Below are positions 11,873 through 17,183 of a DNA stretch of 64,000 nt, piece after piece; the first letter of the stretch is position 1, and each line of letters opens with the position of its first letter. The position numbers and the translations under genes were made by a program. Source of the DNA: Methanosarcina barkeri MS. Its GTDB lineage: Archaea; Halobacteriota; Methanosarcinia; Methanosarcinales; Methanosarcinaceae. Location of the stretch: positions 2,157,168-2,221,167 of the forward strand of contig NZ_CP009528.1 in assembly GCF_000970025.1 (NCBI RefSeq), written 5' to 3'. The notes under the pieces are model-generated. The model saw only the letters and a program-made list of their open reading frames with translations. It was not told the origin of the DNA and ran no database searches.

Positions 11873-12769
11873 TTACTCCTGAATTCCCATATTAGATTGG
11901 ATTTTTTTCTGAAGATTCTTTATTACCTGGAACTTCTCCACTTTTTCCTCGGAATCCGTATAGTTGATATTTTTAAAATTATCCAGAGCCACTTCAGCCA
12001 CGATTGAAGAGTTATTTAATACCTTTTCTTCGGCCTGGACTCGCAGAGTCTCAAGTGCCCACTGGCACTGCAAAACTGCGTCATTAAGTTTCTTCTTTAC
12101 AGATAGTTTTCCAATCTCTTCTATGGAAAGTGCTGTTGAACTTAGAGCTTCATCAAAGTAACTCTCTGCCGCAATCTTACCTATTTCCCCAAGCAAAAGC
12201 AGGCTGCTTACAGTTTCAAGTTCAAGGTTTTTTGCTGCAACCTTTTTCCCGATCTCTCCAAGACCGGTTACTGCACTGAGCACAACGTCCTCCATATTGT
12301 GTTTGGCAGCAGAGATTCCGATCTCTTTAAAGAGCAAAGAAAAAGCAATTACTTTTTCCTGATCCCATTGTTCTGGGAAGAAGTTCCAAATCTCCATTAG
12401 GGTTGTAGCAGCGACTTTTGAACCGGCTTCAAGCGAATGTACAGCTGCAGTTTTTCCCAGTTTTCCTGTTGCTATGAAGGTCTTGTCCAGGGCAGACTCA
12501 AGTCCCTTGTCTGCTGCTTTCCTTGCCAGTTTCCCGAGGGACAGGATAGAATTGATCGTAACAAGCTCCATCTCTCTCTCTGCAGCTGCCTGTGCACCAC
12601 TCTCAATTGATAGGATAACTCTCTCGGCATCTGCCTCTTCATTCTCTGAAAGAAAATCCGCCGCAATTCCTGTAAGAGAATCAAGGGCCTGGAAAGCTCT
12701 GCTTTCATCTCCCTCATCAACTGCAGATAAACTTACTTCAACCGCCTCTGCCTCATTTAATGTAATCAT
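11873..12769 (-). CDS. 23-residue helical repeat protein, paralogue 1
   Basis: 298 aa, no signal peptide or membrane segment. Unknown function. About residues 53-260 consist of nine units of exactly 23 residues without gaps, with consensus LGEIGKxAA-x3-(L/M)E-x-A-x3-A-x2-L. Typical units start LGKLARKAADKGLE, LGEIGKKVAAKNLE and IEEIGKLSVKKKLN. Each unit looks like one helix and a turn, so two units (46 residues) would equal a HEAT-like helical pair, but the 23-residue period is unlike standard HEAT or TPR. The C-terminus (SSIVAEVALDNF) and a charged tail follow. The ATG at 12769 has GGGG eight bases upstream. Paralogues lie at 13976-14812 and 14965-15843 on the same strand. Confidence 0.8.
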   Translation of the reverse strand: MITLNEAEAVEVSLSAVDEGDESRAFQALDSLTGIAADFLSENEEADAERVILSIESGAQAAAEREMELVTINSILSLGKLARKAADKGLESALDKTFIATGKLGKTAAVHSLEAGSKVAATTLMEIWNFFPEQWDQEKVIAFSLLFKEIGISAAKHNMEDVVLSAVTGLGEIGKKVAAKNLELETVSSLLLLGEIGKIAAESYFDEALSSTALSIEEIGKLSVKKKLNDAVLQCQWALETLRVQAEEKVLNNSSIVAEVALDNFKNINYTDSEEKVEKFQVIKNLQKKIQSNMGIQE

Positions 12770-12802
12770 TCTTTTTGCCCCTTTTTATTGTTAGTATCCC
12801 TC

Positions 12803-12869
12803 TTATTGGTAGCATCCGTTATTGGTAGCATCCGTTATTGGTAGCATCCGTTATTGGTAGCATCCGTTA
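12803..12869. repeat. 16-bp tandem repeat, about 4 copies
   Basis: Unit ttattggtagcatccg repeated four times, only about 35 bases upstream of the start of paralogue 1 (minus strand). It therefore sits in its leader or promoter region. Confidence 0.92.
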
Positions 12870-13137
12870 TTATTGATAGAAAACATTAAGCTTCAATTTT
12901 TTCCCGCAGATTTTATAATTCTTGCCTGTATGTTTCATCGCATATTTTCAATTTCAGATTGTTGCGTAAGATATACGGACTGCGCAGGAAATGGAGTCAG
13001 GCTTATTCTATGAAGTTACGAGGTTATTAGTGTTACTATTTTGTAACTGAAGCAGTTCGTTCAAAAAAGAGTTTCCGTTTTTTTCAAAAAGTAAATTTTG
13101 AATTCAGTCAAAATTACGTACCAATCAAAGGATTCTT

Positions 13138-13579
13138 TTATCCCTCTTTGTCTTTTTCCTCATAGTTAAGGGCGTTTTCCATAACTTTTTCGTACACTTC
13201 TTTGTCATCAAGTCCAACAATTCTTGCCCTTACTCTGTCTATAAGCAAGCTTATTTCCCTGAGACATTTATTGTCACATATTGTCACATTATCTGAGCTG
13301 ATAGTGAAGATCGCATTGTCAAACTGTATCTATAATATAAGTACGGTTATTCTGGCTGCCTGAGAGCATGGGATGGGAGAAAATTGTAAGTTCTCTGTTG
13401 ACTATTATATTTTCCCTGTACGCACCAGGGCTTACAAGGATCCTATCCCCTTCATGTGCATTATTAACAGCTTCCTGGATCAAAGCATAATTTCCGTTCC
13501 CACTGTTATTATCTCCACTGTTATTTACAGTGACAAATTTACAGTGACAACCCAGCCTCGGCTTGAGTAATTGCTGTCC
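13138..13579 (-). pseudogene. Degraded NosD-like beta-helix surface protein
   Basis: Reading the minus strand from about 13579, one frame gives the Methanosarcina surface-protein motif NYALIQEAVNNAHEGDRILV, then SPGAYRENIIVNRELTIFS and NRTYIIDTV, ending at a TGA. Shifting by one base at about 13318 continues with DNAIFTISSDNVTI and a tail ending ALNYEEKDKEG. This is the start of a right-handed beta-helix repeat domain (NosD / pectate-lyase fold). Only a small part of a normal protein of several hundred residues is left. A one-base frameshift and a large deletion make it non-functional. It is inserted between paralogues 1 and 2 of the 23-residue repeat family. Confidence 0.75.
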
Positions 13580-13975
13580 AAAGTATAAATTGGAAAATTA
13601 TGAGAATAGCCTGAGTGTCTTTCTTATTAATAGACCAATAACCGTTGAAATTAATAAACTTGACCAAAAAAATAAAACTTATTTTTTATGATAACTTGTA
13701 AGAGGAATAATTGAAATAAAAATCATTATGAAATATATATTCTGAAAAATATACCTTAAATGTTAAGGTTTCCTGAATTTCTCACGCCATTCAACAGTCG
13801 CTATAATTAGCATCATATTAAGTATTATACCGATGCAGCCCCTTGAATCAGTTATGTCGATTCTCAGTTTAACAGTTCCCATGAAATCCAGGGATTTCCT
13901 GGAACGCAATCAGAATCAAATCTATTAGAATCAAATCTATTAGAATCAAACAGTACTTTAAAGTTTTATAAATTT
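13580..13975. other. Intergenic region with 15-bp repeat
   Basis: Contains 2.6 copies of the unit agaatcaaatctatt (13912-13950). A minus-strand frame of about 45 codons (13766-13897, including GTVKLRIDITDSRG and a hydrophobic stretch) could be a fragment; I cannot identify it. Confidence 0.45.
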
Positions 13976-14812
13976 TCAATCAAGAGATTCGGCTTCGTGT
14001 ATATATTCAGACCCATTGAGAGTGTCAAGAGCAAGTTTTGTCATAAGCACGTGACTTATTAAAAATTTTTCTTTAACTTCAAAAATCATTGTTCCTAGAG
14101 AATTGGCAGCTCTTATGATTAGATTCTCAAAGTCGGTAAAACCTGTATAAGAAGATTCACTCTCCAAAAGGACAGGGATATCCTGAAGGGAATCAGTTTC
14201 TCCTCCCTGTTGAGCAAGCAGGCTAAAAATACCCGGAAATTCTCTGGAGAAGAGAATAGCTTCTTTTCCAGGAGGTCGAGATAAGAGGATACATGACTTT
14301 GGAGGAAGAAATCCTTCATTTTCCGGGACCTGGATTCTCTGCTGCCCGAAAGTTTCTTTTCCTATGGATCCTATAGCAAGAGCCGCAGCAAGTGCCTCTC
14401 TTTCCGTCTTCTGAAGTGAGGCGGAGTTCGCAATTTCTCCAAGATATGCGACTGCGATCCTGACCGCAGACTCCATATTTTGCCCAACCGCCGCTTTACC
14501 GATTGCACAGAGAGAGTAAAGGATACTTAAACCGGTGTCAGTCATTTTCTGCTCTCTTGCAATTTCAGCCATTTTTCCAAGTGAAAAAAGTGATAAAAAT
14601 ACCCCAATTTCCATATTTTGAAAGACAGCCGCGCTACCTATGTCTCTTATGCAGATAACAGTCTTTTTTGCGTCGGGCTCGAGTTTTCTATTTATGTATT
14701 CGGTTCCTCGTTCCGTAAGGAAATCTATGGATCGTAATACGCCAAGCTCATCATTTTCCTTAACTGAAGTTAGCCCGAGATCTGTTGCCCCGGTTTCGTT
14801 TGAAATAGACGT
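13976..14812 (-). CDS. 23-residue helical repeat protein, paralogue 2 (ACG start or start lost)
   Basis: 278 codons in frame. The first in-frame ATG is internal (14614), yet the 66 codons upstream are clearly homologous to the N-termini of the other two paralogues (NETGATDLGLTSVKENDE; IRDIGSAAVFQNMEIG). Where paralogue 1 has ATG this gene has ACG (14812-14810), directly after an in-frame TGA and with GGGG eight bases upstream, the same spacing as in paralogue 1. Four regular 23-residue units are visible (IRDIGS, LGKMAE, LCAIGK, LGEIAN), then the pattern breaks down into an irregular insert (about 125-190) before a final FEVKEKFLISHVLM unit. Either an ACG start is used, or the gene is decaying. 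Function unknown. Confidence 0.6.
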   Translation of the reverse strand, partial: TSISNETGATDLGLTSVKENDELGVLRSIDFLTERGTEYINRKLEPDAKKTVICIRDIGSAAVFQNMEIGVFLSLFSLGKMAEIAREQKMTDTGLSILYSLCAIGKAAVGQNMESAVRIAVAYLGEIANSASLQKTEREALAAALAIGSIGKETFGQQRIQVPENEGFLPPKSCILLSRPPGKEAILFSREFPGIFSLLAQQGGETDSLQDIPVLLESESSYTGFTDFENLIIRAANSLGTMIFEVKEKFLISHVLMTKLALDTLNGSEYIHEAESLD

Positions 14813-14964
14813 TCAGAACACCCCACTAAAAGTTTATATCGGGAAAATGCACCTTACGGCCAGATAATCTTTCCTGCACTCCTTTCCCTGTAAAGAAGGC
14901 AGGTTGCGATTTAATATTAAACTGAGTAACTCAATATGAATAGTGTTATACTGAGCGTAACAGT

Positions 14965-15843
14965 TCACAAACCTGTACCTGGTGATCTTTTCTTTCCCCT
15001 GGAAATTTTATTCAGCTTATCTTCCAGTCTCTCAATTTTCAATCTTTCAAAGTGAAGGAGAGCTACTTCGGCAACTATGGATGCACTCATCAGATAGCGG
15101 TCCTCAGCATTAAATTTAATTGCTTCGAGTGAATAGGCTGCCTGAAGCAAAGCCTTATCAAGTCCCTGGCGATCTGCAGTTTTTCCTATATCCTGGATAG
15201 AGCGCACACTCATGTCTGCAGTTTCTTTCAGGTTTTTTTCAATCGCCCCTGTTCCTATCTCCTGCAGCAACAGTTCGGCATTTAATACCGCATCCTCAAA
15301 CTTCTGACTTGCAGCAACCTTTCCGGTCTCTCCGAGAAGGACAACTGTGCTGCTTGCAACATCACCCAGCTTTTGCCATGTAACGCTTTTTCCGATCTCC
15401 CCAAGAGCGAAAATAACCGCAATTGTTCCCTTTTTGGCTCTTCGTGAAGCTGCGGTATTTCCCATCTCGCCAAGGTAGGAAGCTGCGATCTTTGCGGGAG
15501 TCTCCATTTTTTGTTCTGCTGCGACCTTTCCAATCTCTCCGAATGCGAGTGCTATGCTCACAAGAGCATTTTCCATATTCTGCTTGCATGCTTCTGTGGC
15601 AACCTGAGGAAAAAGGAGAAGTGTATTGACAACAATTGGTTCAAGCCTGGCAATAGCTGCCGCTTTCCCTATCTTATTCATATATTCAATCAATCTTTTT
15701 GTGTCGGTTTCCTGCCCTTCTTTTGCATATTTCAGTGCAAGCTCAAAGAGGTAGTTAAGGACTTCTTTGATTTCGGTTTCGTTCTTCTCATTAATCAGAG
15801 TAAGTCCCAGTTCCAAAGCTTCGTTTTCATCGAGCGGTAGAAT
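14965..15843 (-). CDS. 23-residue helical repeat protein, paralogue 3 (ATT or TTG start)
   Basis: 292 codons if read from ATT at 15843, the codon that aligns with the ATG of paralogue 1; a TTG nine codons later (15816, MELGLTLINEKNE) is the first conventional alternative. GGGG and AAGGA lie just upstream. Nine uninterrupted 23-residue units follow (MNKIGK, FPQVAT, FGEIGK, LGEMGN, LGEIGK, LGETGK, LQEIGT, IQDIGK, LEAIKF), ending in SASIVAEVALLHFERL and a basic tail. No signal peptide or membrane helix. Function unknown; probably a helical scaffold for protein binding. Confidence 0.7.
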   Translation of the reverse strand: MLPLDENEALELGLTLINEKNETEIKEVLNYLFELALKYAKEGQETDTKRLIEYMNKIGKAAAIARLEPIVVNTLLLFPQVATEACKQNMENALVSIALAFGEIGKVAAEQKMETPAKIAASYLGEMGNTAASRRAKKGTIAVIFALGEIGKSVTWQKLGDVASSTVVLLGETGKVAASQKFEDAVLNAELLLQEIGTGAIEKNLKETADMSVRSIQDIGKTADRQGLDKALLQAAYSLEAIKFNAEDRYLMSASIVAEVALLHFERLKIERLEDKLNKISRGKKRSPGTGL

Positions 15844-16209
15844 AATCCTTCATGCCCCCAGGTTCTCTCTCAAGTAAGTATGGATATGTGAGAATATTAG
15901 CTTTATCATGGGAAAAAAGCACTGTTGAAAAATATTTTGTTACATGCACCTATTGAATAACTCGTATATGTTATAATGAAAATCCTAACTACAACAAAGT
16001 ATAAATATTACTTATAGGTAATAAGAATCCGGTTGCTTGCGGGTAGATTTTAAAGCCTCATTTCACACACCACGACCAAAACGATTATCATGAAGGATAA
16101 GTTTCATTCCCTTCTTCTTGTCCATCTCTAACCGTTTTCTCGCAAGCAGCTATTATATTTTTTTACAAATCTGAAATTCAAGAAGCAGTACCGATTGTAG
16201 GAAACTCAT
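15844..16209. other. Intergenic region
   Basis: No gene seen. It carries a separated inverted repeat, gcttgcg (about 16033) with cgcaagc (about 16141), spanning about 115 bases, which may be an old element end. Confidence 0.4.
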
Positions 16210-17183
16210 TTGAATAAACTTATTCGAGCATTCAATGATTTCTTCTTATCAAAATCAGCCAGTTTGAATTATGTACTGGCGCCTGAACTAAGAAAAATCC
16301 TGTTCAGTCATATCAACTGCCACAACATTATGCAGTAAATTTTGAAAAGAGTATTGTAAAACTTCCTAGGATTGATGAAGTTAAAGCAATTCTTCACAGG
16401 CGGTTGAAGGTACTCTAAAAACAGCAACTATTTCAAGATAAAACAGAAATCATTTCAAGATAGAACAGCAATCATTTCAAGATAGAACAGCAATCATTTC
16501 AAGATCCTACACTGAAAAATATTTTATAAGTATTCTTGTGGAAGATGGATAAGAACAGCCTACAAAACAGGAATTTTCAGAATCTACCACAAGTAGGAAT
16601 AGATGTTGGTATCAAAGATTTTTCAGTTCTTTCTACAGGAGAAAAAATGGAGAACCCTAAATACTTGAAAAATTCTCTTAACCGGTTGAAAGTCCCGCAA
16701 AAAAGAGTAAGTAGAAAAGTTAAAGGTTCTAAAAATCGAGAGAGGTTCTAAAAATCGAGAGAAGGCAAGACTGCTATTTTCAAAACTCCATAAAAAATTA
16801 GCAATTAGATGAACGATTTCCAGCATAAACTCTCTTCTAAACTTATCAGCGAGAACCAAGCTATTGCGCTGGAAACACTGAGTATTAAAGGCATGCAAAA
16901 AAATCATTGTTTAGCTCAAGCTGTAAGTGATTCTGCATGGAGTAGCTTTGTTACAAAATTAGAATACAAAGCAGGATGGTTCGGTAAAACTATCCTGAGA
17001 ATAGGACAGTTTGAACCCTCATCTAAACTTTGTAATGTCTGTGGATATTATAACCCTAATCTGAATCCTAATGCTAGAGAATAGGAATGTCCTGATTGTA
17101 ATACAAAACATGATAAGGATATTAATGCTGCAATCAATATCAAAAAATTCTCACTTCAAAATCAAAATCTTATAGTTACTTGA
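16210..17183 (+). pseudogene. tnpB: IS200/IS605-type TnpB, decayed
   Basis: RNA-guided nuclease of an IS605-type transposon, broken in many places. The N-terminal remnant starts LNKLIRAFNDFF; a shifted frame gives QHYAVNFEKSIVKLPRIDEV; then after a tandem-repeat expansion (16430-16505) the frame resumes with YFISILVEDG. RuvC-I is VGIDVGIKDFSVLSTGEK. A 19-bp duplication at about 16723-16760 shifts the frame again. RuvC-II is AIALETLSIKGMQ. The zinc ribbon is CNVCGYYN...CPDCNTKHDKDINAAINI, with TAG replacing the expected Trp before CPDC. At least four lesions rule out activity. No TnpA was found beside it. Confidence 0.88.
16430..16505. repeat. 22-bp tandem repeat inserted in the TnpB remnant
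   Basis: About three copies of a 22-bp unit beginning atttcaagatagaacagc. Removing it would join ACTATTTCAAGA to TCCTACACTG and restore a TnpB frame reading TISRSYTEKYFISIL, so the array arose by local duplication inside the gene. Confidence 0.85.

Follow-up and report, generated by a model that had tools for sequence, protein, structure and literature searches.

The described systems closest to the protein family reported here are natural and designed helical solenoids and a family of predicted membrane proteins. HEAT and PBS-lyase HEAT-like repeats (PF03130, PF13646) form all-helical solenoids and have an LGxIG motif in common with our family; a membrane-plus-repeat architecture also occurs among them (L134, encoded in the same genome), as it does in membrane-type relatives of our family. 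They differ in period (31 residues against 23) and in the number of helices per unit, two against the single one in our model. Armadillo (ARM) repeats have three helices per about 42 residues, and armadillo/importin-type solenoids are comparable to our predicted structure in size and helical stacking. The best structural matches are the de novo designed proteins DHR49 and DHR54 (5cwj, 5cwl), which are likewise built of nearly identical helices in tandem, connected by short loops, but are artificial, with 13–17% sequence identity to our proteins and no common ancestry with them. Finally, DUF2254 predicted membrane proteins (PF10011) share their N-terminal domain with the membrane-type relatives, which carry the 23-residue repeats as well, although the Pfam model aligns to these relatives over its N-terminal half only and the three proteins described below lack the membrane domain.

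The locus also adjoins sRNA154, a small RNA reported to be transcribed only under nitrogen limitation; in M. mazei it lies between MM3337 and MM3338 and has a GGTA-N6-TACC operator (PMC3177094).

Three tandem paralogues under purifying selection

The window, i.e., the whole stretch of 64,000 nucleotides of Methanosarcina barkeri MS DNA that was analysed, contains three tandem minus-strand paralogues, here called P1, P2 and P3 (Table 1). The earlier note had placed them correctly at 11873–15843, and their extent is now 11873–15846. Orthologues in other Methanosarcina are 92–93% identical. Compared with four orthologues, dN/dS was 0.16–0.20 for P1, 0.09–0.16 for P2 and 0.10–0.13 for P3; this overall range of 0.09–0.20 indicates purifying selection and thus that all three are functional genes. 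Pfam and NCBIfam gave no recognised catalytic domain in P1–P3, and their sequences have no obvious membrane segment.

Table 1. Features of the P1–P3 locus (positions in the window)
Feature	Coordinates	Strand	Description
P1	11873..12769	-	298 aa solenoid protein, 10 units x 23 residues; ATG start
NosD beta-helix + thioredoxin gene remnant	13144..13613	-	tblastn pieces; between P2 and P1
P2	13976..14812	-	278 aa diverged paralogue, 7 units; ACG start here; basis, open frame
P3	14965..15846	-	293 aa solenoid protein, 10 units x 23 residues; ATT start
Nearly invariant non-coding block, 58–60 nt	15847..15904	-	directly before P3 start; alignment of 28 loci
NrpR-operator-like site	16017..16030		GGATTCTTATTACC; at sRNA154 start
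sRNA154 (RF02906), nitrogen-starvation small RNA	16030..16162	+	110.5 bits (gathering 88); divergent to P3

The trio had been described as standing alone, which it does not: the genome holds three further paralogues, a decayed gene separates P2 from P1, and sRNA154 is divergent to P3. The decayed gene retains only pieces corresponding to query residues 7–26, 39–94 and 464–499, with about 370 internal residues gone; three relatives (L038, L039 and L041; domains checked in L039) have an intact copy of it between P2 and P1. The cluster of L039 is larger and consists of P3, P2, the NosD-thioredoxin gene, P1, a short member and an acidic-tailed member, the last of which is found outside the cluster, elsewhere in the genome, in M. 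barkeri MS. Apart from its own paralogues, the neighbourhood of P3 differs among species, and comparison of the P3 neighbourhoods revealed no constant gene partner other than these paralogues, to which sRNA154 can be added for part of the genus.

An exact 23-residue repeat unit

Self-alignment showed a 23-residue period in P1 and P3 far above that of shuffled sequences. More specifically, the best self-similarity lag was 23 in both P1 (0.26, against a maximum of -0.08 over any lag in 2000 shuffles) and P3 (0.44, against -0.16), and the peak of P2 was at 46 (0.09; shuffle maximum -0.24). The individual units were located with a repeat profile for which 82 proteins of the family served as training set. 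The nine consecutive units previously counted in P1 and P3 were an understatement, since the profile gives ten in each; P2, for which at least four had been claimed, has six in a row and a seventh that keeps the register at a distance of exactly 4 x 23 residues. Across the 82 family proteins the profile detected 683 units compared with 8 in shuffled sequences, and successive units were spaced by exactly 23 residues in 527 instances, the next commonest spacings being 26 and 46 (12 each). The unit has the consensus QNLEEAAxxAAxSLGEIGKAAAE, with most information at Leu14, Ile17, Gly18 and Ala21, and its positions 8–23 are nearly devoid of proline, as expected inside a helix.

Searches of P1–P3 against Pfam, NCBIfam and PADLOC returned chance-level matches only. 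Up to E 10, Pfam listed no TPR, Sel1, ARM or LRV match, in a list that HMMER filters shorten by removing most matches above 0.1. A PDB sequence search yielded only alphaRep-type designs (best E 0.11), and literature searches turned up no account of this repeat. We conclude that P1, P2 and P3 are almost certainly members of a previously unnamed repeat family. This supports the proposal of an undescribed helical-repeat family in the earlier note, for which a match to a known family would have been fatal: no Pfam or NCBIfam model matches P1–P3, and the structural model described next gives one helix per 23 residues.

A predicted solenoid of single helices

An AlphaFold2 model of P3, built from 36 aligned relatives, has a mean pLDDT of 87.7 and a pTM of 0.80, with residues 10–240 mostly at pLDDT 94–98. 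Each unit of the model is a 20-residue helix followed by a 3-residue loop, at a step of exactly 23 (helices 46–65, 69–88, 92–111, 115–134, 138–157, 161–180, 184–203 and 207–226), so that the structure prediction proposed in the earlier note gives one helix per unit. The same step is seen in the model of L058, a Candidatus Methanoperedens relative of the membrane type, whose C-terminal half has helices 268–287 to 383–402 at pLDDT 93–98. This model was built from far fewer sequences than that of P3, and its membrane part is poorly predicted. From these models, and bearing in mind that regular repeats tend to yield regular solenoids in AlphaFold, the unit of P1–P3 very probably folds as a single helix and the proteins as one-helix-per-unit solenoids.

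Fold comparison placed the P3 model closest to designed helical repeat proteins (Z 17.9–19.7 for DHR49, DHR54 and relatives), with 3.6 Å over 175 residues for DHR54 (Z 19.5) and 1.9 Å over 160 residues for DHR49 (Z 17.9). Natural importin/armadillo solenoids differ more, mostly by 5–7 Å at Z of about 13, and have no sequence match. Since Z scores under about 13 carry little meaning among helical repeats, the designed proteins are the only fold matches of note. A search of BFVD gave no match below E 0.015.

The structural matches also include the designed helical filaments DHF46 and DHF91 and, together with the regular units and the several paralogues of equal size, raise the idea that the rods stack end to end into filaments or membrane-lattice polymers with a structural rather than an adaptor role. 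We consider this very unlikely: DHF46 and DHF91 are made of designed helical-repeat monomers, so that the match adds nothing specific, and for P3 residues 250–293 the model gives, with low confidence, a longer helix of another kind that may cap the rod.

The reading that we prefer is that P1–P3 are binding scaffolds. Since the units are alike and adjacent helices would be antiparallel, both faces of the rod would present the same small-residue surface (G15, G18, A21). The proteins would thus be elongated rods with one repeated surface, and such a rigid shape in the model makes a scaffold role probable.

Relation to HEAT repeats

HEAT units have about 31 or more residues and two antiparallel helices (A and B); the unit of the P1–P3 family has 23 residues and, in the AlphaFold2 models, which are predictions only, it lacks this helix pair. 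P1–P3 have no match to a HEAT family in Pfam. This negative result is meaningful because the same method gives 1e-85 for L134, a genuine HEAT protein encoded in this genome. HEAT_PBS is touched by six of 36 family members, with a best E of 0.01, and of six HEAT_PBS proteins of the genome that were measured, five have 31 as their best lag. Given that period, helix count and profile match all failed, we do not claim HEAT membership for P1–P3.

The statement in the earlier note that the units are unlike HEAT therefore stands for period and predicted architecture but is not secure for ancestry. Profile comparison was similarly divided: a profile of the soluble type reached only 2.2% probability against HEAT, whereas a profile of the membrane type aligned to HEAT proteins of the same genome with 90% probability and an 8-residue gap in each unit. 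Eight residues being the difference between 31 and 23, a shortened HEAT unit is a live hypothesis, according to which the family would derive from HEAT_PBS by loss of 8 residues from a helix A–helix B unit, leaving one helix, and would function in ordinary HEAT-like binding. The LGxIG motif shared between the 23-residue unit and HEAT helix A is consistent with this, as are the weak alphaRep match mentioned above and the distant membrane-type member L088, which matches HEAT_PBS at E 7e-9 (35.7 bits, cut-off 20.9) and is the only one of these members to pass the cut-off (L096, E 0.0012). Conversely, the failure of P1–P3 and of the soluble profile to match HEAT, the score that a real HEAT protein attains and the 31-residue period of the HEAT_PBS proteins all argue against it, and the motif, which is short, may match by convergence; the alternative to shortening is convergence on an Ala/Gly/Leu helix. 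We regard shortening as possible rather than probable. The family is of the alpha-solenoid kind and perhaps an offshoot of HEAT_PBS.

As a separate observation, L134 (118–1647) is a HEAT_PBS protein whose membrane N-terminus has a DUF2254-like SAVMQSVAA motif, the likeness of this N-terminus to DUF2254 being no more than suggestive (17%). Similar membrane domains may thus carry repeats of 31 and of 23 residues.

Soluble and membrane-type members

A search of Methanosarcina genomes, as proposed in the earlier note, found the repeat across the genus, mostly in 4–8 copies per genome, the matches being soluble proteins. Outside Methanosarcina the repeat is sparse (58 of 393 genomes sampled) but extends to additional families within the order and to further classes within the phylum. 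The members examined there are 400–700 aa long and have an N-terminal membrane domain, with a DUF2254 match in most of them; this match is above the cut-off and lies directly before the 23-residue repeats. Profiles of the soluble and membrane types align with 99.8% probability over 255 columns, from which we infer that they form one family. P1–P3 themselves have no PF10011 match in Pfam, and the DUF2254 relative encoded in the window (L128) has weak repeats only (E 2e-7). Neither the membrane-anchored relatives nor the regulatory setting of the locus featured in the earlier note.

Apparent non-AUG starts of P2 and P3

The earlier note began P2 at the ATG at 14614. We moved this start upstream to about 14812, an ACG at which orthologues have ATG or GTG. 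P2 orthologues start at this one place with ATG (10), ACG (5), GTG (1) or ATA (1), behind a GGGG-type motif, and the ACG is found in M. barkeri MS and several other species. Among 28 distinct sequences of P3 orthologues (L008–L046), the codon at the start is ATT in 26, ATC in one and ATA in one, and never ATG; in M. barkeri MS the ATT is doubled (15846 and the adjacent 15843) and either could be the start. Judged from the sequences, AUU is the apparent start codon of P3 throughout the genus.

Initiation elsewhere, by reading through from an upstream ATG or at a downstream TTG, would make the conserved block before P3 a promoter only and the AUU not regulatory. The frame is indeed open to an upstream ATG in four cases (L011, L014, L015 and L041), and a GTG directly before the ATT or ATC in L016 and L018 could serve as a start. 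We nevertheless hold initiation elsewhere to be unlikely: most species have an in-frame TGA two codons before the ATT, codon 10, a TTG in M. barkeri MS, is CTG, TTA or TTC elsewhere, and all orthologues have a GGGGG Shine-Dalgarno-like motif about 8 nt ahead of the ATT. A conserved upstream peptide or stop-codon readthrough was also considered, as an ATG-led frame ends just before the ATT, and was rejected because the ATG, the frame and the stop are all unconserved.

The P3 upstream region and sRNA154

Across the genus about 60 nt before the P3 start are nearly invariant, which the DNA further upstream is not. Frames in this block are broken by indels, showing that it is non-coding, and it occurs once in the genome. 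Some 50 nt ahead of the start is a TAATAT element that would suit a core promoter followed by a short leader; the block may be either such a promoter and leader or an RNA leader. RNA structure in the leader was rejected, as it folds worse than shuffles (z about +1).

sRNA154 adjoins P3 in 8 of the 15 other P3 loci scanned, i.e., in only part of the genus. An exact GGTA-N6-TACC was found at the place of the operator in five of eight other species' intergenic regions checked, and the M. barkeri MS version is weaker. As the operator sits at the sRNA154 start, that it also controls P3 is no more than a possibility. P3 would be tied to nitrogen status through the intergenic region that it has in common with sRNA154, a link that we consider doubtful. 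Pairing of sRNA154 with the P3 leader did not exceed chance (39 of 300 shuffles as good). By eye, a short frame at 16809–17084, near sRNA154, resembles the C-terminal part of a TnpB-type transposase.

Discussion

Support is good for the repeat and for its distribution, and the fold is a confident prediction. Our full explanation, to which we assign a probability of roughly 0.6, is that of a single-helix solenoid family with soluble members that would be binding scaffolds, relatives tethered by DUF2254, and a dosage-limited P3. In the relatives, DUF2254 would tether the rod to the membrane, and the soluble Methanosarcina copies would be free partners or competitors; judging from the tethering seen elsewhere, that P1–P3 partner or compete with membrane-bound relatives is a tentative suggestion and somewhat unlikely. 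The dosage of P3 would be kept low by AUU initiation behind a strong Shine-Dalgarno sequence.

In evolutionary terms, a natural solenoid of single equivalent helices may have arisen among methanogens and archaea related to them, forming the cytosolic portion of DUF2254 membrane receptors, after which soluble copies were released in Methanosarcina, one of them throttled by AUU genus-wide. We place this history not far below even odds; if true, it would provide a natural counterpart of designed helical repeats.

The family has a period and a unit absent from Pfam and NCBIfam and would join the few regular natural solenoids, as a natural repeat whose best structural matches are designed proteins. 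It may be useful in protein design and for studying repeat-protein evolution, including whether HEAT was cut to one helix. DUF2254, whose function is unknown, gains a recognisable cytosolic module, and the conserved AUU start of P3 is well suited to testing how archaea initiate at codons other than AUG.
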